NCBI RefSeq assembly: GCF_964355755.1
Contig: NC_092670.1
Location: forward strand, 15,313,201-15,377,200
Direction: 5' to 3'
Length of the DNA stretch: 64,000 nucleotides
Source of the DNA: Antedon mediterranea
Taxonomy: Eukaryota; Echinodermata; Crinoidea; Comatulida; Antedonidae
The notes below the pieces were generated by a model. That model had not been told where the DNA came from and searched no databases. It saw only the letters and a program-made list of their open reading frames with translations. Of the stretch, positions 37,401-55,750 are shown in pieces (the stretch's first letter is position 1; each line of letters starts with the position of its first letter). The translations under genes were made by a program, and so were the position numbers.

Positions 37401-40400
37401 GTAACTGCAGTATAAACATTTTGACATGGTTCCTAATGGTGTATTTCACCAAATCATCTCGCATTGTATTTTTTTGTTGAGAAGAACATTTACTCTACTG
37501 TAGGAAACATGCTCATTTACCTAAGATGTATCAAAACATATCCATCTAATGCTAAAGCTTGGTTTCCACTTAAACGCAACACAAAGTTGTGTTGGCCAAT
37601 CACAAACAACAGTTTGGATGGTATATCATATTGTGATTGATCAAATTGCTTGCCTTGCATGTCCTTGCATTTAATGAGGAATCCAGTTTAAATTCTTGTA
37701 GGCAACCAATTATAACATTAATAAAGTTCATATTTGTTTGTATTGATAGCATTTAGTTCTCGAACACAAAAAAAGATAAAAAAATATCCAGCTATTAATA
37801 AGTTCTTGTAATCAATGATAACATTTTATTTATTTATTTTTTTTTTAATTATCTTTTCTGGAGGTCTAGTCATCCATAAAAAATTTCAAAATATATAAAA
37901 TACTGTAGTGTTTATCAAAATTTTGTCCATTACCAGATTATTTTCAGTTGTTCACCATGTAGAGCACATTAAATTTTTAAAATGTGTGCAATAGTAGTAC
38001 ATTTTTACATACGCAGTGTTTTCATATGTGCTCCATGCTTTATATACTGTATTATAGGTGTAATGCAAAACTTTTTAAATTTTAAATTAATTTCTTCTTG
38101 TAATGCCATGTTTTTATATGTGATCATTTTTTGAATATAAACATTATTTTAAAATGTATTGTCAAAGCACCAGAAAAATTGAGTCGTAAAAATAATAATA
38201 ATAATGCCCAATGCACAAAACCTCTAAGCTCTTCACATTATTGCCCCGGTAATGTCAAACATGTCTGGAAACATACTCCCATAATGTTGCAGTCGTAATC
38301 AGCGCAGTTGTGTTTTGACCTATACCAGGTACCCATTTGTACACCTGGGTGGAGAGACACAAATGTAATGCGACAAACTTTGGATTCAAACCCACGATCA
38401 GCTATATATAATAGTCCAACGTCCAACACACTGCGCCACATGCCCTTACAGTTTTACTTCTAATCTGAATGTATACATTTCCAAAGCTCATTGATTTGTA
38501 ATACTAAGTGAATGTCCATCTTATTTTATGTTTAATTTACCTTCATTTTATTTATTTTTTTTTTTTTCCATAGTTTGTTTGAAGCTGTGCGTATGTTAAT
38601 TCAAGAAAAGATACATCGCTTACCAGTCCTGGATAAAACAACTGGCAACGTCATTTACATTCTCACTCACAAACGCATCCTAAAGTTTCTCTCACTTTTG
38701 GTAAGATGAACATTTCAGTTGTGTGAAACAATTTGTTTTTAAGATATTCATTTTTTGCCACAATAAAAGAAGCTGCCTTTTATTGTTAAATTGGTTGTTA
38801 AGTTTTCTAAAAATTTAACACATTTACAGGTGTTAAAGTCAGTAATAAAGAGGCCTTGAGACAACCTCATTATGCTTACATAATCCTATAAATGAAGTTG
38901 GTAAAATTTACCAAAATAATATCATACAATTACAGTATTACAAAATATATTAATTTATAGGATCATAGTTCTTATGAGAGAGAACGTCTTTTTAAAATTG
39001 ATGTGTCCAGTATCAAGTATTTATTTTCCAATAAAAAGGTAGTACGTTTAAGTGTGCAGGATTCATCTTTGGTTTGAGCATGGAGCTAACAGTTATAAGT
39101 TTGCCGTCTCACTCACTAATTTATCTTTGTTTAGTTTGTTATTGTTTTTTTTTTCTTGTATATAACACCTGTCGTTATTATGTTAAATAATATTAAAATT
39201 AGGTTAGTTGTGTAGGGCTGTATGTAAATATAAAAATGAGAACATTATCTAGACGATAACCTATTTTAAATCTATTTTGATTATTCACAGTTCAAATAAT
39301 ATTTATTTAGTCACAAATCAATAATAACCCTGAGGGAGATTATAGGCTAAAACCTACAGAGATTCTGCACTCACTTTATGGTAACAAAACCATAAACAAA
39401 ACAAGAAATTAAAAAATACAAACACAATAAATAGAAAATAGAAAACAATAATATTCTGAAATGTGTTTATGGTAGAACTGCATTTAATTCTTGCATTTTA
39501 GAAGGCAGACAAGTTAATAATAAGACACTTCATGTCCTAAAAAATGTGATTGGCCCATATATGGTAGTGCTATGCTTAAATATGGTAGTGATATGATATC
39601 ATTATGTCCATATATAGGCACATCACATTTTTTTGACACATGATATTTGATAGCGTAGACAGGGGTTTAAGGTCACCAGTGCAGTTTACTACTTAGCTCA
39701 CCGTGTAGTGTAAAATCAAACTTGTAAAATTATGATAATTACTTAAATTTGCTGACAAAAATGCTCTTTCTAATGTGCATGTTTTTTTGTTCTTAGTATA
39801 AAATTAATTAAGAGATTTTTACAACGTACAATAACTTCAAAATAAAATTTAATGACGTTTAGGAACCATCATGGAACCAGTCTCAAGAACAAACGACTAA
39901 ACTTAACAAGATACAAAGCACCAAAGGGTGACAGGAAATACTTAAACAATTAGTAACAAAGACTGAAAAATTTTGTGTTTCGTAGTGTAGTTGTTAATTT
40001 TATTCATTTTTTCTTCAGAATGGTTCCGAAACGTTGATCTTTTATGTCATTTAATTTTATTTTTAAATAAAATTAATCGTAAACAAAAATATAAATTGGT
40101 CACTAACATAGTGTTAAAACAGCACATTACAAAAGATCCTCAGTCCCCTTGGTTATTTACAAAATCAAACATAGGAATTGTATTGAAATATTGGTTTTGC
40201 TCTATTTATCTAGGTTTTTCTCTATTGTTAACTGCATGATGTACAGTACTTCTAGTATTAACCTTTTTTTACCAAAAAAAAAATGGTTTATTGTCAATTA
40301 AATTGGGTCTTTTATTGGTAATTACATTTTTAAAAATATGTGCATTTTTAAATTTATGTGATATTTTTACAAATTTTGTTTTTGATATGTTATATTTTTT

Positions 40401-43400
40401 TGTAGAAAACCGAGATTAAACGCCCAGCTTTACTGAAGAAGAGCATTAAAGATTTAGGGATTGGAACTTACTCAAATATTGCAACGGTAATATTTTAATT
40501 GCTTTCTGTAAATTATGTTGTCTTCATGTTGTAAATGGAAATAGGTTATTTGATGATACTGTATCTTCAAAATTTACAAAAACTTGATTAAGCCTGGTTT
40601 CCATAAAATCGCTACACGGCAAAACGTAGCGATTCTATGGAAACGCTAGAATTTGTCGGGGATCTAGTACACGAGCGCTAAATATTCTTTGGTACGCATA
40701 CGATTCATCGCCGACAAAATCGGCAAAGTTGAACATGGTTGAACTTTGCCGATTTGACTGCGATGAATCGGGGAGACTTCCCGATTACGTCGGCGACATC
40801 TGCACGTGTAGCGATTTTAATGGAAACGCTGTAGCGATTCTAATGGAAACCAGGCTTAAAGGAAGAAAACAAATGTTTTACAAATAAATTTGTGTACATT
40901 TTCTAAACTACCTTAGGCGAGGAAAGACACTCCTTTGATCACAGCGTTAAATACATTTGTTGAAAGAAGGGTCTCGGCATTGCCAGTTGTAGATGAAAAT
41001 AACAGAATTGTTGATATCTATGCCAAGTTTGACGTTATTGTAAGTAATACTTATGTTTTTTCATTTTTAAAGGGTTCCTTTTTCCACAAAAATCAACATG
41101 GTTAACACATATAACCCCGCTTGGAGGACACCCCTATTAAAGGGACACTTTGTTAGCTAGATACTGAATTTTTTCCTTTGAATGCCCCTGCTCAAATTTA
41201 TATATGTGTATTATTTTATCTCTGCTTTATAAATTAAAAAAATAAAATGATAATATATAAATTATACATTATCATTTTATTTTTTAATTTATTCGATTTT
41301 AGCCCATTCTTGTAGAATAATATACAAATAATGATGCAATTGTACCAATGCTTGCAATGGTACAAATAATGATGCAATTGTACCAATGCTTGCAGTAGTA
41401 CAAATAATGATGCAATTGTACCAATGCTTGCAGTGGTACAAATAATGATGCAATTGTACCAATGCTTGCAATGATACAAATAATGATGCAATTGTACCAA
41501 TGCTTGCAATGGTACAAATAATGATGCAATTGTACCAATGCTTGCAATGGTACAAATAATGATGCAATAGAGAGAAATGGCGAACCGACGTCTAAAATGG
41601 TGACTACTTCTTCGCATGCAGCTAAAGTAAAATGACGTCACGTTAAAGCGTGTCGTCACAGAGTCTCATGCATATGCAAAAGGATGTTTTGTCTCTGCTT
41701 CTTGTGTTGTGCGCTCATCATGATTTTACAAAATGTTTTCAGAGTGATATTAATTATGGTGCGATCGGTGGTACAGAAAATAATCCGATATTGTTCCTGA
41801 TAACAAAGAAGCAGATTAAATATAGTTGTTTATTCGACCCATTTGGCTTAGTTGTATATTGTGCTCTGGGAATGAATGATTACACTAAGTATTTCACTAA
41901 GAAATCAGACCATGTGCTAATGTTCGGGTGTCACGAAAGCTCAGACCACGAAAGCTCAGACCCCCTAAGACCTAAGATCACGAAAGCTAAGACCCAACAC
42001 CTAAGATTACAAATACTAAGATATACTACAGCTTAAAAACAATACTTGTTTATCCATACATAATTTTAAACACAGTAGGTTTCATTTATTACCATAAATA
42101 TAATTTAATACTACCGCAAAACATAGTTAAACTCACATTATTTTCGCCCGTTGAGTAAATGTATATTTTTTCTTTACAACAAACAAACTTGACGGGTTGT
42201 TTGTTGGTATATATTTACTCCATTGTGTTGGTTCAGAGGATGTTTTTCTTACGCACCTGCCTTTCTTGTATTTTGACTCCAAATTTGTTGACTAACTTTA
42301 TCCTGAACACCACACATTAAAATTAGGACTTATAAGTACTTTCAGAAGGAGAAACACATAATAACAAATAAATAAATCCTTTAAATTGATGATTTTACAG
42401 ATGTGTTTCTTTGTATACTGTAATGTAACTCCTCGAGCTCCCCCCATGCTCAATGTTTTTGTTTTTATGGAGCGCCAAAAGAGCAACAATAATAGTACAA
42501 GTATAAAAACAGAAAAAAAACGAAACAAAAAAACTTATCATGATTTTTAAATTAAAATGTATTTGCCAGTATTTATTTCTTCGTACTTGCATGATTATAC
42601 TATTATCATTACAATTTTAATTTTACATTGTTCCATCCACACTGTAGATGGACTCCACAGAGTTTTCAGCCCTCTATATAATTTTTGCTCTTTTGACGTT
42701 CCATAGAAACAAAAACATTGAACATGGCCCATGGGGTAGGCCTACTGTACTGTAGGCTAGTCATTTTGTGTGCGAGAAAAACGTCTGTAAAATCATCAAT
42801 TTAAAAATGTATTTGTTACTTTTTATGTGATTCTTTTTCATGAAAGTGCCAATTCTAAGGTGTGGTATTCAGAATAAATGTTAGGAGTTAAAATACAAGG
42901 CAGGTGCGAAAGATAAATATTTGTAATCTTAGGTGTTGGGTCTTAGCTTTCGTGATCTTAGGTCTTAGGGGGTCTGAGCTTTCGTGGTCTGAGCTTTCGT
43001 GACACCCGCTAATGTTCAGCCATCTTGTAGAACTCCTTTATTAGTCTCCAATCCAGTCGTTAAATTGCTAATATGGGTAGGCCTAGACAGACTTTCTATG
43101 ATACCTACTCACTAGCGGCCTAAACTAAAGTAAAATACAGTAGGCCTATACACTGCCCACTATCAGGCCATCCATATCCTCCCCTTCATCGTTACCGCGT
43201 GGCATCGTGCAGATGTACACTAACCCGGCATACTAGCTAACTTCACACCCACCCTAGCTCTCAGGTATGCACTGCGCTGCCACTACATACAGTAGGAGGC
43301 CTAGCCTATTTCGGGTCTCATGTCTTGCAGCATTTGAAAATACGTGACTAATATTGTACATTATTATTATTTTTTATTCGCACTGGAAGTATCTAGGCTC

Positions 43401-46400
43401 TCCTGTCATGTTAAAATTAAAGTATATTATTTATTATCCTCAGCAGTGAAAACAATTATTATTTTTCGATAAATCTCGCGTCGCGTCGCGTGTGTGAAAA
43501 AACTCTCAGCAAGTTTGCTTCATTAATATGCATGAGACTCTGTGACGACCCACTTTAACGTGACGTCATTTTACTTTAGCTGCATGCGAAGAAGTAGTCA
43601 CCGTCTAAAATCCGAGTGGGTATAAAATCATAACAAACCGTTGAGGGCGGCACATTTCCTATGTTTATACACGTGAATCATGGCGTCGTCTAACCAATGT
43701 TGTTGCTGTAACGCTCATAATTCTTTTTCTATTTGTGTATTTAGTCATCCATCATTCACAATCATATTCCTAAAAATATCTCATATCTATCTGTAGGTCT
43801 ACATTAGACTAGGCCTATAGTATTATAGTAGAACGGTCTTATCATGGTCTTATCAAGTATTCATTACTGGCGGTAGCCCCCCGGCAGGAAGCTTCACTAG
43901 CCACATAACAAAATGGCAGTTGTCAAGCTGAAACTAAATGCTAGGCCTACGTCTACTAGAGATGCTCTATTTAGTCTTACTACCTAGCTAGGAGAAGCCT
44001 AGCAGCACCCTAGCTAAAGTAGTAGTAGTACAGTATGCAATAAAGAATTTCCAATATTATTATTATTATTATAATAACCGATAATCCGTGCTAGGCTCGC
44101 TCGAGTAGGCCTGCTCGAGTAGGCCTACTCGAGGTCAACACAGCATCAGCGAAACTATCTAGGGCTGCGCCTAGAGCTGGGTACAGTATATAACAAAAAC
44201 GCGTCTTAATCAATCAAAATTGAAATAAAATATGTTAAGATTTGCCCATATAACATTAAAATTGTTAAGGGTGTTGCAAAAAAAAAAGATACTGCTATTA
44301 TGTGTGTTTTAAACGTTCTTTTCTAACTACCTTTTTAACTCAACCCATCGGAATTTCCCATACAAAAACATGTGGCGAAATGGTTTGTTTACAATCTATA
44401 CCCACTCGGTGAAATTTGAGTGACGTCATCGCGGTTCACCATTTCTCTCTATTGTACCAATGCTTGCAATGGTACAAATAATGATGCAATTGTACCAATG
44501 CTTGCAGTGGTACAAATAATGATGCAATTGTACCAATGCTTGCAATGGTACAAATAATGATGCAATTGTACCAATGCTTGCAGTAGTACAAATAATGATG
44601 CAATTGTACCAATGCTTGCAGTGGTACAAATAATGATGCAATTGTACCAATGCTTGCAATGATACAAATAATGATGCAATTGTACCAATGCTTGCAGTGG
44701 TACAAATAATGATGCAATTGTACCAATGCTTGCAATGGTACAAATAATGATGCAATTGTACCAATGCTTGCAATGGTACAAATAATGATGCAATTGTACC
44801 AATGCTTGCAGTGGTACAAATAATGATGCAATTGTACCAATGCTTGCAGTGGTACAAATAATGATGCAATTGTACCAATGCTTGCAGTGGTACAAATAAT
44901 GATGCAATTGTACCAATGCTTGCAGTGGTACAAATAATGATGCAATTGTACCAATGCTTGCAGTGGTACAAATAATGATGCAATTGTACCAATGCTTGCA
45001 GTGGTACAAATAATGATGCAATTGTACCAATGCTTGCAGTGGTACAAATAATGATGCAATTGTACCAATGCTTGCAGTGGTACAAATAATGATGCAATTG
45101 TACCAATGCTTGCAGTGGTACAAATAATTTCATGAAGTGTAAGATAAAAGGTCCTAAACCTAAACCATTCAAGAAAGCATTACTCCAATTTGGAGGGAGA
45201 GTAGAACAATTGTAGACAGTGTGATACTAGACTAATTTAAAAACACTTTATAAAACCTTGTCTACACTATCAAACTTTACATGAAAAAAGGTGTCATTAT
45301 ACCCAAATATGGTAGTGATATGCCCAAATATAGTAGTGATATGACAACATGATCATGTCCATATATGGGCACATCCCATTCTTTTCTTCAAGAAAGTTTG
45401 ATAGTGTAGACAAGGTTTAACTCTACCTTATCACTATTTTGTTCTCAGAATCTTGCAGCAGAGAAGACATACAACAACCTAGACGTGACGATTGAGCAAG
45501 CTTTAAAACACAGGGAAACGTATTTTGAAGGAGTGGCCAAATGTAAAGCTAACGAATCATTAGAGACTATCATTGAAAAGATTATTAAAGCAGAGGTCTG
45601 TCTTACTTGGTATTACTTTAGTAACAATGATGCCTTGGGGTAGTGCTTTATTAATATTGGAATTGGAAAATCTCCTCAATATGTACACTTATGAATTTAA
45701 ATGTAGATGAAAAGCATATACTTACTTACTAATACCAAAGAACTTATAACACAAGAATCTCCTGTTCTTCAATTTGCATTCAAAACACAATATCGGAAGT
45801 ACAGGGTTAAAAGGTCAAACTGGGCGACGCCATTTCACAGCATGGAGCAGCACCCCCTCCAAACTAGGAAGTCAATTACTCTACCCCCCCCCCCCCCTAG
45901 AGTATTAGCAGATCCCCTCTATGATTTTGACTTTCTAATTTGATGCGGGCGCCCTACTCCTCAGTCAATTACTCTACCCCCCTAGAGTATTAGCAGATCC
46001 CCTCTATGATTTTGACTTTCTAATTTGATGCGGGCGCCCTACTCCTCAGTCAATTACTCTACCCCCCTAGAGTATTAGCAGATCCCCTCTATGATTTTGA
46101 CTTTCTAATTTGATGTGGGCGCCCTACTCCATGGCTCACAATGGCGCCACCCATAGCTCTATTCTATCCCACAATGCCTTTCGAAATTGTTACGTGCTTC
46201 GGACAAACAGGAGATTCTTGTGTTATAAGTTCTTTGCTAATACTTATTTACTTGGTACTGAATTATTTTAAAATACTTATTCCTTAAATTAATCACAATT
46301 TAGTGGCTTCAATAATTTAAAATCCCATTCCTTACATTTTTACGATCTAATTTAAGGTCACAAACTACATTTAGTAGTAAATATAGTAGAGTAAGTAGTA

Positions 46401-47726
46401 GTAAGTATAGTAGTACTAGTAGTAAAATAAATACTATATTAGTGGTCCTATAACTGTTTTTATCTTTCACGATTAAAAATGTGAAAACTAAGTAAATTAA
46501 ATAAAATAATTTAAGCGACCCGCTAAAAATCGTTTTTATTAAGGGAGTGCATGATTTCTCTCTTTTTATCATAATTTACCATAAAACGTACATTTAAGAC
46601 AAAGAAAACTTGGTTTAATGTTTGTAAAGTATATATATATTTATATATATACTTATAATTTTATATGCATTATTTTCACAAAACGTCAAAGATGGTAGGG
46701 AATGGGTTTTTAAAGATGGAGCCCATCCACCATAAAAAGTGCCATACCACTTTATTAATATGTTCTCTCTATCTTTGGTCATAATTTGTTTTAGGATAGG
46801 TCTGGTTACATGATTTTTGTTTTAATTTTTATTTAAATATAAACATACTTTTATTAGTGTTTATTTTTCTAACTAGCTGTTTTTCCGTCTTAGGTTCATC
46901 GTTTAATTATTGTTGATAATGAAGACCATTTAGTTGGTGTTGTATCGCTGTCTGATCTACTCAATCACTTGGTGCTTAAACCTGCAGGTAACAACAATAT
47001 TTACTATTTTAGACTCTAAATAATCAAAACACATCCAATAAAATGGGAAGGATTTGAATACAGTAAAACATCTATTAAGGGGATACCCCAAATATTAATA
47101 AGGATTTTCACAGAAAAAAAAACTAAAAACAAATATACCAAAATGAACAATAATTGATCTGGATTCAAGAAATTGAAAATAATTGAAAATTTAGCCGGTA
47201 ACATTTCACCAATGAATAGTGTAAAGCCAGAGAAAGTATCATAAATATTATCATATTTATTATGATATCCATTTTTGTATTAATAACGATGTTATTCTGT
47301 GCCTGTGATATAAATGAATTTAATTATTTTGTCTTTTTTTTTATTGAACAAATACATTGTCTTTTCACGTGTGGTTGAATCAACCAATCCTGTCCCCCTA
47401 CTGAGGTGTCCCCAGAGTAGGGGTTGGCCATACTGTTTCCTCTTGTTTCATGGGAAAGTGTCCCTTAATTAGTCGTGTTCCAAAGGAGAGGTTCTGCTTT
47501 AATTAATTTTGACAATAAAAGTAATTTATATCGTTATTAAATCATTATTAGATCGAAAATTTAATTGAATTTCCATTATTCTATAAAAAGGATTTATTTA
47601 TTTTGATTTTATATATATTTTTTAGGTGTACCATCGAGGAACCCAAGTGGAAGTTCATCTGTTACTGGTCCAGATAGCACAGTTAGCAGTCCAACTCTAA
47701 ACATGTCGCCAACCCAGTTACCATAG
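22411..47726 (+). CDS. PRKAG2: AMP-activated protein kinase gamma subunit, PRKAG2-like, 18 coding exons
   Basis: Exons: 22411-22455, 24544-24735, 25565-25765, 28132-28228, 29080-29216, 31210-31230, 32287-32332, 34505-34605, 35038-35119, 35324-35382, 35749-35794, 37049-37100, 38574-38700, 40406-40486, 40917-41039, 45449-45595, 46894-46987 and 47626-47726. All are in phase, giving 583 residues, close to long vertebrate gamma-2. The N-terminal [17 protein letters not shown] matches the gamma-2 N-terminus; the rest of that half is Ser/Arg/Pro-rich. Four CBS repeats follow from [18 protein letters not shown]. The nucleotide-site residues are visible in [20 protein letters not shown] and SLSDLL. 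It is the energy-sensing regulatory subunit of the AMPK trimer. The first exon ([15 protein letters not shown]) and the 21-base microexon 31210-31230 are the least certain. The intron after 35119 uses a GC donor. Confidence 0.88.
27486..27690. mobile_element. MITE family 3 copy
   Basis: It begins AATCATGTCAAAATTATTCT then CTGCAGTTTACTGCAGTAA. The far end is inverted, TTACTGCAGTAACT ... TTTTGACATACCTG. It lies in the AMPK gamma intron upstream of exon 28132-28228. Confidence 0.7.
28348..28537. mobile_element. MITE family 3 copy
   Basis: It starts TGATCATGTCAAAATTATTA followed by CTGCAGTTACTGCAG, and ends with the inverted AACTGCAGTACAATAATGTT followed by GACATGATCC. It lies about 120 bases past exon 28132-28228. 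Confidence 0.75.
29578..29683 (+). other. possible alternative exon of the AMPK gamma gene
   Basis: After an acceptor TTCAATTTTCAG, an open frame starts in the phase left by exon 29080-29216 and runs [20 protein letters not shown]... to ALEQI. A donor (GTAAAC at 29684) would leave phase 1, which does not fit the next exons. Read through, the frame meets TAA eight bases later. If used, it would make either a frame-breaking cassette or a terminal exon encoding an N-terminal-only isoform. An AATAAA lies near 29821. It could equally be chance. Confidence 0.3.
29832..30548 (-). mobile_element. 5'-truncated non-LTR retrotransposon fragment (reverse transcriptase C-terminal part)
   Basis: A 238-residue open frame contains [34 protein letters not shown] and [13 protein letters not shown]. 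This is the thumb and C-terminal region of a reverse transcriptase of the jockey/CR1-like non-LTR groups. The catalytic FADD region and the endonuclease are absent. It lies antisense inside the AMPK gamma intron after exon 29080-29216. The T-rich minus-strand sequence past 29832 (to about 29700) may be its 3' UTR. No target duplication was identified. Confidence 0.8.
31210..31230 (+). other. candidate 21-nt microexon (RSYSESY) of the AMPK gamma gene
   Basis: An acceptor ACCATTCCAG and a donor GTGAGA enclose 21 bases coding RSYSESY in phase 0-0. This exactly fits between exon 29080-29216 (ending phase 0) and exon 32287-32332 (starting phase 0). Skipping it would also keep the frame, so it may be regulated. 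A downstream donor GTCAGT at 31243 would break the frame. Confidence 0.45.
34081..34315. mobile_element. MITE family 3 copy containing the CAGGGAGTTG motif
   Basis: Ends GTGATCATGTCAAAGTTATT and the inverse GTAGAATACTTTGACATGAT, with CTGCAGTAACT/GCATTAACTGCAG arms. The centre (34187-34215) carries the same CAGGGAGTTGTAAAAT motif as the hairpin at 1618-1664. Confidence 0.7.
37215..37433. mobile_element. MITE family 3 copy
   Basis: Left end AATCATTCTACTGCAGTTAC then TGCAGTAAC. Right end GTACTGCAGTAACTGCAGTA followed by an inverted TTTTGACATGGTTCC. It lies in the intron after exon 37049-37100. Confidence 0.7.
37554..37690. mobile_element. MITE family 1 copy
   Basis: Starts AAAGCTTGGTTTCCACTTAA and ends with a diverged inverse, GAATCCAGTTTA. 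Internal TTGGCCAATCACAA is paired with TTGTGATTGATCAA. It lies in an AMPK gamma intron and is more diverged than the other copies. Confidence 0.65.
38195..38452 (-). mobile_element. SINE with tRNA-like head
   Basis: The minus strand begins with an A-box-like TGGCGCAGTGTGTTGG and a B-box-like GGGTTTGAATCC at tRNA spacing. A body follows with CTCTCCACCCAGGTGTACAA, a conserved core seen in SINEs of aquatic animals. A 3' tail of ATT repeats (plus strand AATAATAATAATAATG near 38195) completes a tRNA-derived SINE. It is non-coding and lies antisense in the intron before exon 38574-38700. Confidence 0.7.
39536..39676. mobile_element. MITE family 4 fragment (AATATGGTAGTGATATG element)
   Basis: Contains AAATATGGTAGTGATATGAT and GTCCATATATAGGCACATCA, and ends TTTGATAGCGTAGACAGGGG. 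This matches the right part of the foldback element at 45255-45419. The left end is missing or diverged. Confidence 0.6.
40588..40859. mobile_element. MITE family 2 copy flanked by TTAA
   Basis: Bounded by TTAA at 40588-40591 and 40856-40859, with terminal inverted AGCCTGGTTTCCAT and ATGGAAACCAGGCT. The internal palindromic arms match those of the copy at 10266-10548. It lies between AMPK gamma exons 40406-40486 and 40917-41039. Confidence 0.8.
41333..41565. repeat. 38-bp minisatellite, left block
   Basis: About six units of a 38-base repeat (core TGTACCAATGCTTGCARTGG then TACAAATAATGATGCAAT). The block stops at the left end of a terminal-inverted-repeat element and resumes at 44453, so the two blocks were one array before the insertion. 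Confidence 0.9.
41926..43007. mobile_element. nested 1,082-bp element with 90-bp perfect TIRs and 10-bp target duplication
   Basis: The left terminus 41926-42015 (starting GGGTGTCACGAAAGCTCAGA) is the exact reverse complement of the right terminus 42918-43007. Both sides are flanked by GCTAATGTTC (41916-41925 and 43008-43017). Each terminus contains three copies of a motif like CACGAAAGCTCAGACC. Long TIRs plus a 9-11-bp duplication are typical of Mutator-like elements; the family call is inference. Internal sequence is a looser inverted repeat around 42387-42810 with no transposase, so it is non-autonomous. Confidence 0.88.
43611..44412. mobile_element. possible nested TIR insertion in the right arm
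   Basis: CCGAGTGGGTATA near 43611 is the inverse of TATACCCACTCGG near 44399-44411. The segment between interrupts the otherwise matching right inverted repeat of the 41566-44452 element. About 800 bases long, it contains several TAGGCCTA palindromes and no recognisable coding sequence. Exact ends and target duplication are unclear. Confidence 0.5.
44453..45127. repeat. 38-bp minisatellite, right block
   Basis: About 18 units of the same 38-base repeat as 41333-41565, very uniform (variants mainly at CAATGG, CAGTGG and CAGTAGT). All three minus-strand frames are open through it, giving long spurious frames with a 38-residue period. In the duplicated unit B only about one and a half units remain (54636-54683). 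Confidence 0.92.
45255..45419. mobile_element. MITE family 4 copy (foldback)
   Basis: Begins AAACCTTGTCTACACTATCA and ends with the inverse TTTGATAGTGTAGACAAGGT. The middle holds ATATGGTAGTGATATG repeats and GTCCATATATGGGCAC. It lies just upstream of AMPK gamma exon 45449-45595. A truncated copy is in unit B (54812-54938). Confidence 0.75.
45714..46258. mobile_element. foldback element with internal 86-bp tandem repeats
   Basis: The left arm (TACTAATACCAAAGAACTTA, ACACAAGAATCTCCTGTT) is inverted at the right (ACAGGAGATTCTTGTGTTAT, AGTTCTTTGCTAATACTTA). Between them, about 45896-46135 holds nearly three copies of an 86-base unit containing TTAGCAGATCCCCTCTATGA. It lies in the AMPK gamma intron after exon 45449-45595. 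Confidence 0.7.
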
Positions 47727-50159: not shown

Positions 50160-52470
50160 TTATTTCTTCTCTACGGTCATAGCATACGGTTTAGGCATCC
50201 TAATGATACCGACGGTAACATCGTTAAGAGAAGGAGGAGATTGAGATTCAGGCACTTTGAAGGTAAACCTCTGAAGAAGGTTAATTGTCAATAAGTAGAT
50301 TTCCATCTTTGCTAGAAGTTGACCAATACATATCCGATCACCTTAAAATGAATGAAATAAAAGCAAGTTGTTTCATTTATTAAAACCTGGTTGTGGTTAG
50401 TGGTACACGGTATCTGTTACCTGAAACTTTCGGTTACTTTAGGCCTATATAACAATGTCGGTTTTTAGAATTGTAAAACGATAATCCAATAGTTAAGGTT
50501 GGTTCTCACTTAACGTAGTTAGTTGACCAATCACCAGCGACAGTTCGGATGGCCCATCACGCAGTAATTGCGTTCGTAGTAATCTATTATATCTATACAA
50601 ATAGATAAATAACTTATACAAACCTATTCCAAAAGGAATAAATGCTTCATTCTGTTTGATCGTCTTTCCATCTTCCTCTAGATGCCGCATTGGATTAAAT
50701 TCTTCGGGATTTTCCCAGAACTTTGGATCACGGTGCACAGCCCAGGAATTTAAAATAAATCGAGTATTTGCAGGAATTGTATATCCCTTTATCTTTACCT
50801 CTGATGTTGTACATCTAGGCACGTTACTATGAGCTACCGTTGCATGGCGCTGGACTTCCATAATCATTGCGTTGACATACGGTAGTTTATCTCGATCAGA
50901 CCAGCTAGGAGTTTGATCTCTGCCCAAGATTTCTTCGATCTCGTTTTGTGCCTAAAAAGATTAGATGAAATATTCTTTTTATCTTTCGTGGTTAACCACT
51001 ACCTTTATTCATTCAGTTTTTTTTTTTCAATTCAATTTTTTATACATCTTTCTTCGTAATATTCTGTTTTTGGATCTCTTTAATATTACTTTAGATTAGA
51101 TGGAATATCTAAAAAATATCTAGAAAAAATCGTAACGAATAAGATAAATAAAGCAATACGCCTATCATTGGATTATACCTTTTGATAAACTTCAGGATAA
51201 TTTAACAGATACAGTAACATCCACATCGTAGTTGTTGTAGCAGTCTCTGTACCAGCCTGGAATAAATCCTGCACACCTCTCCAAATGACGCCTGAATCGA
51301 AGACTACCTCCTTCCTGTCTAACTTCTGCCGAATGATTTCGGCAATGTAATGGTCAATCATGTCTCGAATATCTTCCGGATTAAATGTTGATTTATGTTT
51401 ATCCACTATCTCAACAATGAAATTTCTGACAGTCGCTATTAACTTCCGTTCTTTTGATCTATACCGTGTATTCCACAGAAATGGGAAACAGTTGGATAGA
51501 GAAACTTGACCGATAGTCCCAAACACCTTGCTCAGTGATTCAAGCAAAACTTTAAATTCCGCATCTGAATACTCGTACCTCTGGCCAAAACTAATAGAAC
51601 AGATGATATTAGACACAGCATTGTTGATAAAATGGCAGGGGTCAAAAGTTGATGACGTATTTGCTTTCTTTTCGATTTCGTTACACATGTATCGTGCTTC
51701 TTCGTTTATCCGATTTTCTAGACTACGTTTTCCGACACCGAAGTTCCGGAAAGCTGTAAGCGCCCATCGCCGACGTTCTTTCCATACAGGTCCATTTTCA
51801 AACACCAAACTTCCTATAAAAATGAAAATAAATTATGGAACTAAAATGATGATGCTTATATAAAATGAACAAAGGCTAATATATAAAAAGTAATACTCTT
51901 GGTTCTCACTGCTATGACGTAACGTAAAAACGTTGTATTATTTCTATTGTTTGGCTTATTTCTTATTCATAACTACAAATGCTTTATTTGGTCGATTGTT
52001 TTGATCCGGGTAGACTTCTTTAGGAAACTTTTGATGACCAATCGAGAGTTCCAATTATCCGTCGCAATTCTGGTTATCAACATCATGGGTATGAAAAAAG
52101 GTATGTTCTACGTAGGCCTACCTGAAATCGAAAACCCATTTTTTAGATCAGGGAGAGCAGGTCGATCCGAGCAGACGTTTGCATTCTTTATGAACGCTTC
52201 TTTCGCAACCTCAAAATCATTAAGTACTACAACATTCAATCCTGCGATTCGTATAGTAAAGATACTGCCATAATCTTTAGCCCACGATGCAAATGTACGG
52301 TATGCTTCTTTGCCCAATCGAGGTGCTATACCAATTATGGGGAATCCCCATGGTCCTCCTGGTGGCAAGTTTTTAGGTGAGTTTATATATCGTACTGTCA
52401 CTAAAACCACGCAGAAGACGATTAGAAGACTCGATAAATTACAGTCAAAAACAGCTTCCAAGAACGACAT
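50160..52470 (-). CDS. cytochrome P450, CYP2-type, tandem copy A (4 coding exons)
   Basis: Exons 52122-52470, 51179-51813, 50624-50951 and 50160-50341 give 497 residues, full length for a microsomal P450. The N-terminal membrane anchor (LSSLLIVFCVVLVTV) is followed by the proline hinge NLPPGGPWGFPIIG. Helix I carries FQAGTETATTT. The EXXR-type motif is EVQR, with the downstream NPEEFNPMRHL, and the heme loop FGIGDRICIG holds the axial cysteine. These mark a clan 2 monooxygenase of the endoplasmic reticulum; substrate unknown. Start chosen at MSFLEAVFDC because the upstream extension begins with TTG. Only four coding exons is fewer than in vertebrate CYP2 genes. The third intron contains the left half of a family 1 MITE. 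It is convergent with the AMPK gamma gene. Confidence 0.92.
50495..50577. mobile_element. MITE family 1, left half, in P450 copy A intron 3
   Basis: AAGGTTGGTTCTCACTTAAC and GTTGACCAATCACCAGCGAC match the left half of the family; the right half is missing. The same intron of copy B has the right half (59370-59512). Confidence 0.6.
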
Positions 52471-52945
52471 TTTGTTAAATGAACAGCACTGTGCTGCAAT
52501 AACCAAGGCCTTGGCTGCTTATGGGCAGTCAACTGTAACATAGGAATAGAGTAATTGTATTTGTATAAAAGCTTTCTGGGGGCTTTATTAATATCGTCAA
52601 CAACGTTACGGTGGTCACGACGTCACGTGATATTCTGTTATTTGGATCATAATATCAAATATATTGCATTAAAACCTTAAGCTTTGTTGTATTTGGAAGT
52701 ACCAAGCGCCCCATGAATATTTTGGCAGTTGTTTTCTATTGTGAAATTTAATTATATTATTAAAAGTGAATTATTATGTATACAATAATAAACACGCCAC
52801 ACAAACGTAATATTCTTATTTTTTGCCTTCTTGTAAAATAAAGGATGGCCGTTAGCCAAAGTAATAATTTAAGAGAGATTTATTTTCTTGCAAAATTGTC
52901 TTTTCTGTTTAATTCCCCCATTCGAATAGCCTAATAATAATTATA
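52471..52945. other. 5' flank of P450 copy A and duplication junction
   Basis: Upstream of the P450 start lies an acceptor-like CTATGTTACAG on the minus strand, so a 5' UTR intron is possible. Unit A ends and unit B begins at about 52940-52945. No other gene is present. Confidence 0.45.
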
Positions 52946-53125
52946 AGTAAGAAAGGTATTTTCATTTTAAAAGGGGTTCTTTTCCACAAAAGGAGCAAAA
53001 ATCATCATGATCAACACTATAACCCCTCTAAGGGTACACCCCTATTAAAGGGACACTTTGTTTGGTCCTGAATGTATTCCCTTTATACGCCATTGCTCAT
53101 ATTTATATCTGTGTATTATTTTATC

Positions 53126-54556
53126 AAGCGACATCATCAAGCAAGGAGGGGAGGAGATAATCCAACAGCTAATAAAACTTTTCAACCAAATCTTAGTGAT
53201 ACAGAAGATACCAAGAGCATGGAAAGAAGCCAAGATCATTCTTTTGTTCAAGAAAGGGGACAAAGCAGATGTTAAAAACTACCGTCCCATTAGCCTCTTG
53301 TCTCATCTGTACAAAATCTTCACTAAAATAATCCATAACAGAATAAGAGATGTTTTAGACAACAACCAACCTAGAGAACAAGCAGGTTTCAGAGCAGGGT
53401 ACTCGACAATAGATCATCTACAAGCAATAAACCAGCTAATTGAAAAGGCAAGTGAATACCAACTCAAACTCTGTCTTGGCTTTGTGGATTACCAAAAGGC
53501 ATTCGATTCTATTGATCATTTGGATATGTTTGAGGCGCTCCGAAAAATAAATGTTGATGAAGATTACGTCAGAATCATAGAAGATATCTACACTGATGCA
53601 ATAGCCAGAATCCATATTGATAATGATATATCAAGAGAGGTTCATATACAGAGGGGGGTACGACAAGGTGATACTCTGTCCCCAAAGATATTCACAGCAA
53701 CCATCGAAGAAGTATTCAAAAAGGCTCAGCTTAATGGAGGTATAACTATTGATGGAGAAATGCTTACAGACCTCCGTTTTGCGGATGACGTGGCATTGAT
53801 TTCAACATCAGTTGCAGATATGAAAAACCAACTCTCAAGTCTGAATAAGGAGAGTAAATCAATCGGACTAACTATGCACAAAGACAAAACAAAATACATG
53901 ACTAACTTTGACACACAGGAAGACATTGAAATAGAGGGCCGGAAACTAGAAAAAGTGGAAGAATATAAATATCTAGGACAAACACTGAAAATGGAAGACA
54001 CCACGAAGGAAGAAGTTATGTTAAGAATAAAAGCAGGATGGATGAATTTTGGCAGACACAAACACATGTTGACTGACAAGAGTATACCAATGTCACTGAG
54101 AAAGAAATTATTTAACCAATGTGTGCTATCAAGTATGACATATGGTTCAGAGACATGGGCAATAACAAAGGAACTTGAACAGAAACTTACAACTACTCAA
54201 AGAGCAATGGAAAGGAAGATGATGAACTTATCGCTTCGAGACAGGGTAAATCATACAATCATAAGAAAAAAGACAGGTGTTACAGATATAATGGAGAAAG
54301 TAAGACAATCAAAATGGAGATGGGCTGGGCATGTGGCGAGATTTCAAGATAATAGATGGACATACAGATTAACAGAATGGCAACCAAGGGTAGGAAAGAG
54401 GAAAAGAGGAAGACAAAAAAAGAAGGTGGAGAGATGATCTAACAACATACATTGGAACGGCTGCATGGACTAGGACAGCAAGAATTAGACAGAAATGGAA
54501 ATGTTATGAGGAGGGCTTCATTCAACAATGGATGAACTAATTGCCTAGATAGATAG
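53126..54556 (+). mobile_element. RTE-type non-LTR retrotransposon, 5'-truncated, with 11-bp target duplication
   Basis: ATTATTTTATC flanks it on both sides (53115-53125 and 54557-54567), and the uninterrupted sequence is present in unit A near 41209-41220. The open frame carries reverse transcriptase motifs: WKEAKIILLFKKGDK, NYRPISLL, QAGFRAGYSTIDHL, FVDYQKAFDSID, RGVRQGDTLSP, the catalytic RFADDVALIS and YKYLGQTLKM. The endonuclease half is lost. The C-terminus continues in another frame (RWRDDLTTYIGTAAWTR) after a one-base shift in an A-rich run near 54415-54425. The 3' end is a GATAGATAG tail, as in RTE elements. Confidence 0.9.
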
Positions 54557-54635
54557 ATTATTTTATCTCTGCTTTATACATTATAATTTATTTTTGAACA
54601 ATTTATTGAGTTTAGCCTGTTCTTGTAGAATAATA

Positions 54636-54683
54636 TACAAATAATGATGCAATTGTACCAATGCTTGTAATGGTACAAATAAT
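54636..54683. repeat. remnant of the 38-bp minisatellite (unit B)
   Basis: A little over one unit (ACAAATAATGATGCAATTGT, ACCAATGCTTGTAATGG). It shows either the ancestral short state or a contraction relative to unit A. Confidence 0.8.
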
Positions 54684-55750
54684 TCCATGAGGTGAAAGCA
54701 AAGACAAAAGGTTCTAAACCATTCGAGAAAGCAGTGCTCCAATTTTGATTGGAGGCAGAGTAGAACAATTGTAGACAGTGTGACAGTACAGGTTAATAAT
54801 TTATAAACACTACTCTGTCTACACTATCAAACTAGTTTGACGACAAAAAAAAGTGTGATGTACCCAAATAAGGTAGTGATATGCCCAAATATGGTAGTGA
54901 TATGACATCATCATGTCCATATATGGACACATCATATTCATTTTTTCAATAATTTGCCTTTGGATTTATATATTTACATTATTTTCACCAAAACGTCAAA
55001 GATTGTAGGGAATGGGTCTTTAAAGATGGAGCCCATCCATCATAAAAAGTTCCATACAACGTTGTTATGCTCTCTCTATCTTTAGTCATCATTTTTTTAG
55101 GATATGTCTGGCTACATGATTTTTTTGTTATTATGATTTAAATATAAACATATTTTTAATAGGGTTTATCTTTCTAACAAGCTGTTTTTTCGTCTTAGGT
55201 TCATCGTTTAATTATTGTTGATAATGAAGACCATTTGGTTGGTGTTGTATCGCTGTCTGATCTACTCAATCATTTGGTGCTGAAACCTGCAGGTAACAAC
55301 AATATTTACTATTTTAGACTCAAAATAACCAAAACACATCCAATAAAATGGGAAGGATTTGAATACAGTAAAACATCTATTAAGGGGATACCTTTGAGAC
55401 CCAAAAATTAATAGGGATTTTCACAGAAAAAAAAAACTAAAAACAAATATACCAAAATGAACAATAATTGATCTGGATTCAAGAAATTGAGAAGAATTGA
55501 AACTTTAGCAGCCAACATTTCACCAATGAAAACTGCAAGCCAGAGAAAGTATCATAGTTATTATCATATTTATTATGATATCCATTTTTGTATTAATAAC
55601 GATATTATCTTGTGCCTGTGATATAAATGAATTTAATTATTTGGTCTTTTTTATTGAACAAAAACATTGTACCTTTAATATAGTAGTTGAATCAACCAAT
55701 CCTGTCCCCCTAGTGGGGGTGTCCCCAGAGTAGGGTTTTCCCATAGTTTT

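Follow-up and report, generated by a model that had tools for sequence, protein, structure and literature searches.

How did several transposable elements come to be stacked inside one minisatellite, and can the order of their arrival be read from a single genome? The question is raised by an intron of an AMPK gamma gene in the crinoid Antedon mediterranea. The window (the whole stretch analysed, 64,000 nucleotides, positions 15,313,201 to 15,377,200 of NC_092670.1) is part of the contig that we call C1, and the genome searched amounts to 354 Mb in 18 contigs. The initial annotation, made from the letters alone, described a 38-bp tandem array split by one element with terminal inverted repeats (TIRs), which would carry two further insertions side by side. 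We consider that a linear nest is very probably the best explanation of the whole: a minisatellite entered by an element E1, E1 entered by E2 and E2 entered by E3, each element with a target site duplication (TSD) of its own.

The host intron and its minisatellite

The nest lies in a GT..AG intron of the plus strand (41040..45448, GTAAGT...TCTCAG), directly 3′ of an AMPK gamma exon (40917..41039, +; recognized by 18 residues) whose 5′ limit is that of the open frame and not a mapped splice site. Spliced translation across the intron gives a peptide, and the flanking-exon peptide matches AMPK gamma-1 structures and chains with E=7e-36, which upholds the placement in an AMPK gamma intron originally proposed. 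A further exon, marked by 32 residues, occurs twice on the plus strand (46894-46989 and 55199-55294), and the flanks of the array recur about 9.5 kb downstream, with 41262-41370 resembling 54574-54683 and 45081-45394 resembling 54636-54952 at 78-89% identity. Since the exon is present at both positions with similar flanks, the downstream stretch is a tandem copy, though a partial one, of the gene's 3′ part.

Several other features surround this arrangement. The duplication matches align 41037-41370, 45081-45394 and 46662-46798 with 52940-55104; the downstream copy keeps one exon (17 residues) with identical protein and has no match to the exon at 45449-45595. Frames that look like cytochrome P450 occupy 50160-51832 on the minus strand, a stretch that separates one copy of the AMPK gamma 3′ segment from the other. 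At 45253-45418 lies a small repeat whose inverted repeats are perfect over 26 bp (AAACCTTGTCTACACTATCAAACTTT); related pieces occur at 39539-39667 and 54816-54952. An 85-bp tandem repeat is found at 45892-46130, and its ACTCCTCAGTCAATTACTCTA motif recurs elsewhere in the sequence that received one E2 copy (L056).

Tandem Repeats Finder reports the 38-bp minisatellite in two plus-strand parts, 41323..41568 and 44451..45128, with 97-98% matches in both; the last two bases of the left part and the first two of the right part are the AT target duplications of E1. As had been read from the letters, the array is broken at a single point; we find that its phase is kept and every unit preserved (2884 from start to start over the interruption). 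Searching the genome with the array gave strong matches at this locus only; beyond these there were a single unit (54636-54683) and, at other places on C1, two weak partial matches. The lone unit (54636..54683, +, with its bounding repeats) lies in the partial duplicate of the same intron and consists of one 38-bp period with TACAAATAAT on either side. The array arose locally, since a single 38-bp unit is retained in this duplicate at a distance of 9.5 kb downstream, and the one-unit paralogue likely represents its unexpanded starting state.

Once E1 is taken out, the array's first 304 bp differ from the 304 bp that follow (a shift of eight units) by 1 mismatch, against 6-10 for all other unit shifts: an 8-unit block is duplicated. 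In the first block E1 separates unit 6 from unit 7, and the equivalent position is intact in the second; because only one copy of the block carries E1, the insertion came after the block duplication. In these respects the array resembles minisatellites that expanded from a unit with short direct repeats on either side, here the TACAAATAAT repeats that flank the 38-bp period of the paralogue, and it shares with them the higher-order duplication. Compared with ordinary minisatellites, hosting a nest is its sole unusual point.

Anatomy of the nested elements

E1 spans 41569-44450, with AT on both sides and its left end split by E2. The initial annotation had placed an outer TIR element flanked by AT at 41566-44452; its nature and flanks stand, with adjusted limits. 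The left terminus, AGAGAGAAATGGCGAACCGAC followed by GTCTAAAAT (the target of E2), occupies 41569..41598 (+) and is uninterrupted in other E1 copies, while the rest of the left end, the body and the right terminus lie at 43612..44450 (+). Without E2 and one GTCTAAAAT copy, E1 measures 869 bp, and its two ends, E2 set aside, read AGAGAGAAATGGCGAACCGACGTCTAAAATCCGAGTGGGTATA and AGAGAGAAATGGTGAACCGCGATGACGTCACTCAAATTTCACCGAGTGGGTATA.

The body of E1 has 34 full-length matches in the genome, and its terminal motif occurs 76 + 72 times on the two strands, versus 0 + 0 for a reversed control pattern. We compared 29 copies besides that of the window. All 29 are flanked by AT/AT, and the duplication suspected at the window copy is thereby substantiated; for a copy taken alone, a repeat of 2 bp carries little weight. 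A precedes in 29/31 and T follows in 30/31 of the pairings tabulated, among them two spurious ones; averaged over the examined copies, the target reads C-A-AT-T-G with the central AT duplicated. Four copies (L016, L020, L024 and L030) are found at an identical point of one dispersed repeat, their flanks being 91-99% alike over several hundred bases, and the E1 of these loci was probably carried along by another repeat.

E2 (41599..43602, without assigned strand) is a non-autonomous TIR element of 2004 bp including E3, with ends GGTGACTAC...GTAGTCACC. Its TIRs are 77 bp long and 75/77 identical, and it is bounded by the 9-bp duplication GTCTAAAAT at 41590..41598 and 43603..43611 (both +). Ends of this type with perfect 9-bp TSDs were found at the window copy and at 17 others (13 loci and 4 more), and E2 ends occur elsewhere without E1. 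The segments 41593-41680 and 43527-43600, formerly taken as long inner inverted repeats of the outer element, are therefore reassigned: they are the ends of E2, with their own 9-bp GTCTAAAAT repeats. E2 is present inside none of the 29 other E1 copies examined. By script, 27 of them run through GACGTCTAAAATCCGAGTGG; L020 and L030 differ by point changes. Two tandem E2 copies at 23408-23410 kb of C1 (L033/L034) share a common 9-bp duplication, GATGATATC.

E3 (41926..43007, without assigned strand) is a 1082-bp non-autonomous TIR element, GGGTGTC...GACACCC, with TIRs identical at 90/90 positions. The element with perfect TIRs annotated at this position is thus confirmed, with the correction that it sits inside E2 and not directly in the outer element. 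Its 10-bp target duplication, GCTAATGTTC, is found at 41916..41925 and 43008..43017 (both +), and perfect 10-bp direct repeats flank 10/10 E3 copies checked. There are at least about 40 near-full-length copies, at 94-99% identity, and an unoccupied E3 site was found in one E2 copy (L032). At C1:3.03 Mb and C1:9.04 Mb (L064/L065 and L066/L067), two E3 copies have the same flanks in opposite orientation, which means that the insertion site itself is duplicated.

Family assignments and choice of target

By TSD and TIR structure, E2 and E3 are probably non-autonomous Mutator-like families, an assignment that we keep provisional since the searches gave no coding copy that shares their ends. Target duplications of the MuDR/IS256 group range over 4-10 bp (PMC10045372), and the 9-bp duplications and 77-bp TIRs of E2 fit this group as well as the 10-bp duplications and 90-bp TIRs of E3; both elements also have many interspersed non-coding copies. 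They differ from known Mutator-like elements in that neither set of ends is linked to a MULE transposase and their sequence families were matched to no named one. That E2 and E3 belong to other superfamilies, such as Merlin or an undescribed group, is an unlikely alternative that still deserves some weight: no transposase sharing their ends was found, yet duplications of 9 and 10 bp with long TIRs lie within the published MuDR/IS256 range (PMC10045372). As for Merlin in the case of E2, IS1595-type domains are few in the genome, with none beside E2 copies among the matches listed. Nothing closer was found in the literature on 10-bp duplications and transposons in minisatellite arrays.

Among the genome matches listed, there is no autonomous partner with E2 or E3 ends. 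PF10551 (MULE) matches exist in the genome, with none near E2 copies among the matches listed, and the ends of three MULE loci considered as partners (L087-L089) match neither element. A 13.1-kb copy on C3 (L084/L085/L040), considered as an autonomous E2, is really a 1.8-kb E2 split by an element of 11.2 kb in which an rva_4 integrase domain is recognized. A 5.5-kb copy on C5 was also set aside: its frames resemble LINE reverse transcriptase by eye, and it has no E2 transposase. Six further loci with E2 ends have no recognizable transposase in the 3.6 kb read. The 11.2-kb element inside the C3 copy (C3:15559138-15572236) has inverted repeats of ~355 bp. One possible reading gives it TA...TA ends and a duplication of 6 bp, AGCAAA; such features are reported for IS3EU (PMC10045372).

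The initial annotation could name no family for the outer element, which we can now place. ISL2EU elements, of the PHIS superfamily of DNA transposons, are defined by A-AT-T targets with AT duplicated and by one frame with THAP, HTH and DDE domains plus a YqaJ frame (PMC4482050). In the genome search with DDE_Tnp_4, one of the best matches, an open frame of 547 aa, adjoins an E1-like match on C8 (L061). At this locus, termini identical to those of E1 bound an element of 4438 bp with flanks AAT...ATT. Its 547-aa frame (3208-4848 of L061) contains THAP (3.6e-6), HTH_Tnp_4 (1.3e-11) and DDE_Tnp_4 (1.3e-38), and a second frame (2234-2752) matches YqaJ (7.3e-11), the YqaJ region being split over several reading frames by introns or decay, so that it may not be intact. 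Over the whole genome, just 4 YqaJ matches are listed. E1 itself has no coding capacity; it agrees with L061 over the left 162 bp (98%) and the right ~700 bp (88%), as after a simple internal deletion.

Because its A-AT-T targets and the same-ended copy with THAP/HTH/DDE and YqaJ match the published definition (PMC4482050), we assign E1 to ISL2EU as an internally deleted, non-autonomous element. The likeness extends to the 2-bp AT duplication at the sites and to the arrangement in L061, where one frame unites THAP, HTH_Tnp_4 and DDE_Tnp_4 and a separate one has YqaJ; the mean published length is ~4840 bp against 4438 bp for L061, and an animal host is common to both. ISL2EU TIRs usually start with GG, whereas E1 starts with AGAGAG; the source calls GG only usual (PMC4482050), so that it is not a defining requirement. 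Unlike coding ISL2EU elements, the window E1 is a deleted form of 869 bp, non-coding and split by another element.

Could the array have been the cause of the E1 insertion and not a coincidence? Apart from the window copy, 5 of 29 E1 insertions fall within tandem arrays, with periods of 32-88, compared with 5.7% of the window in arrays (P ~0.02), and the array offers CAATTG once per unit. Measured against control positions in the same flanks, however, the excess is not significant (5/29 versus 13/116, P 0.27), and many preferred sites per array would account for it with no special recognition. We therefore hold it improbable that E1 is drawn to minisatellites as such, and equally doubtful that E1-type ISL2EU elements prefer minisatellites with CAATTG units, making arrays landing pads where successive transposons pile up. 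A special attraction of E1 to tandem arrays is not established.

The target also bears on the alternative that E1 is a Spy-like element with no TSD, ending in TAGAG...CTCTA, with AT not duplicated. The AT target is palindromic, and at the window copy the letters also agree with TA termini and zero TSD. Spy elements have an AAATTT target without duplication and a transposase frame only (PMC4482050), whereas E1 targets centre on C-A-AT-T-G and the same-ended coding copy has THAP, DDE_Tnp_4 and YqaJ. The sites, A-AT-T with C/G preferred outside, are also as published for ISL2EU (PMC4482050). On target sequence and coding content together we reject the Spy reading, which we regard as very improbable, in favour of ISL2EU.

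Order of events at the locus

The segment 43612-44409 looks bounded by inverted repeats (CCGAGTGGGTATA...TATACCCACTCGG), and 43611-44412 had been annotated as a further TIR insertion. It is E1's own body together with the inner part of its ends: the CCGAGTGGGTATA segment is continuous with the AGAGAGAAATGG terminus in 27/29 other E1 copies by script, and in L020 and L030 with point changes. An arrangement in which a single outer element possesses long inner inverted repeats and carries two independent insertions (41926-43007 and 43611-44412) can be dismissed as next to impossible, since the genome copies rule it out: the segment 43612-44409, for which no convincing flanking direct repeat is seen in the window sequence, lies just inside both termini in 29/29 other E1 copies and in the 4.4-kb coding copy, and the supposed inner repeats are found elsewhere without E1 and with their own perfect 9-bp duplications. 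To the question of whether outer and inner ends form one larger unit, the copies thus answer yes for 43611-44412 and no for E2 and E3. That the layering gives a legible sequence of events was correctly foreseen; side-by-side inner insertions were not the right form of it, and the data give the array, then E1, then E2, then E3.

Because E2 lies in E1 and E3 in E2, the elements would have entered in the order E1, E2, E3; the basis is geometry, together with copies that lack the inserts, within one genome and not cross-species dating. The TIR identities (75/77 in E2, 90/90 in E3) are consistent with E3 as the younger of the two inner elements. The following history is very probable for the linear nest. 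Its element boundaries, TSDs, dispersed and insert-free copies and the coding copy of E1 are shown directly, whereas transposition in trans, the way in which the array grew and the superfamily to which E2 and E3 belong are inferred. The array would have grown in the intron, perhaps by slippage or unequal exchange, from one 38-bp unit between two TACAAATAAT repeats, and an 8-unit block would then have been duplicated. E1 would have inserted at one CAATTG of the array, duplicating AT, presumably moved in trans by the transposase of full-length relatives such as L061. E2, with its 9-bp duplication and 77-bp inverted repeats, would then have entered the left end of E1, and finally E3, with its 10-bp duplication and 90-bp perfect inverted repeats, would have entered E2.

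No function is indicated for the nest, which is most likely neutral intronic sequence. The analysis names the outer family and corrects the anatomy of the nest; otherwise this is ordinary repeat biology with ordinary parts. The locus lets the successive steps, from unit to array, block duplication, E1, E2 and E3, be ordered from one genome, and most of these steps have unoccupied sites for comparison.
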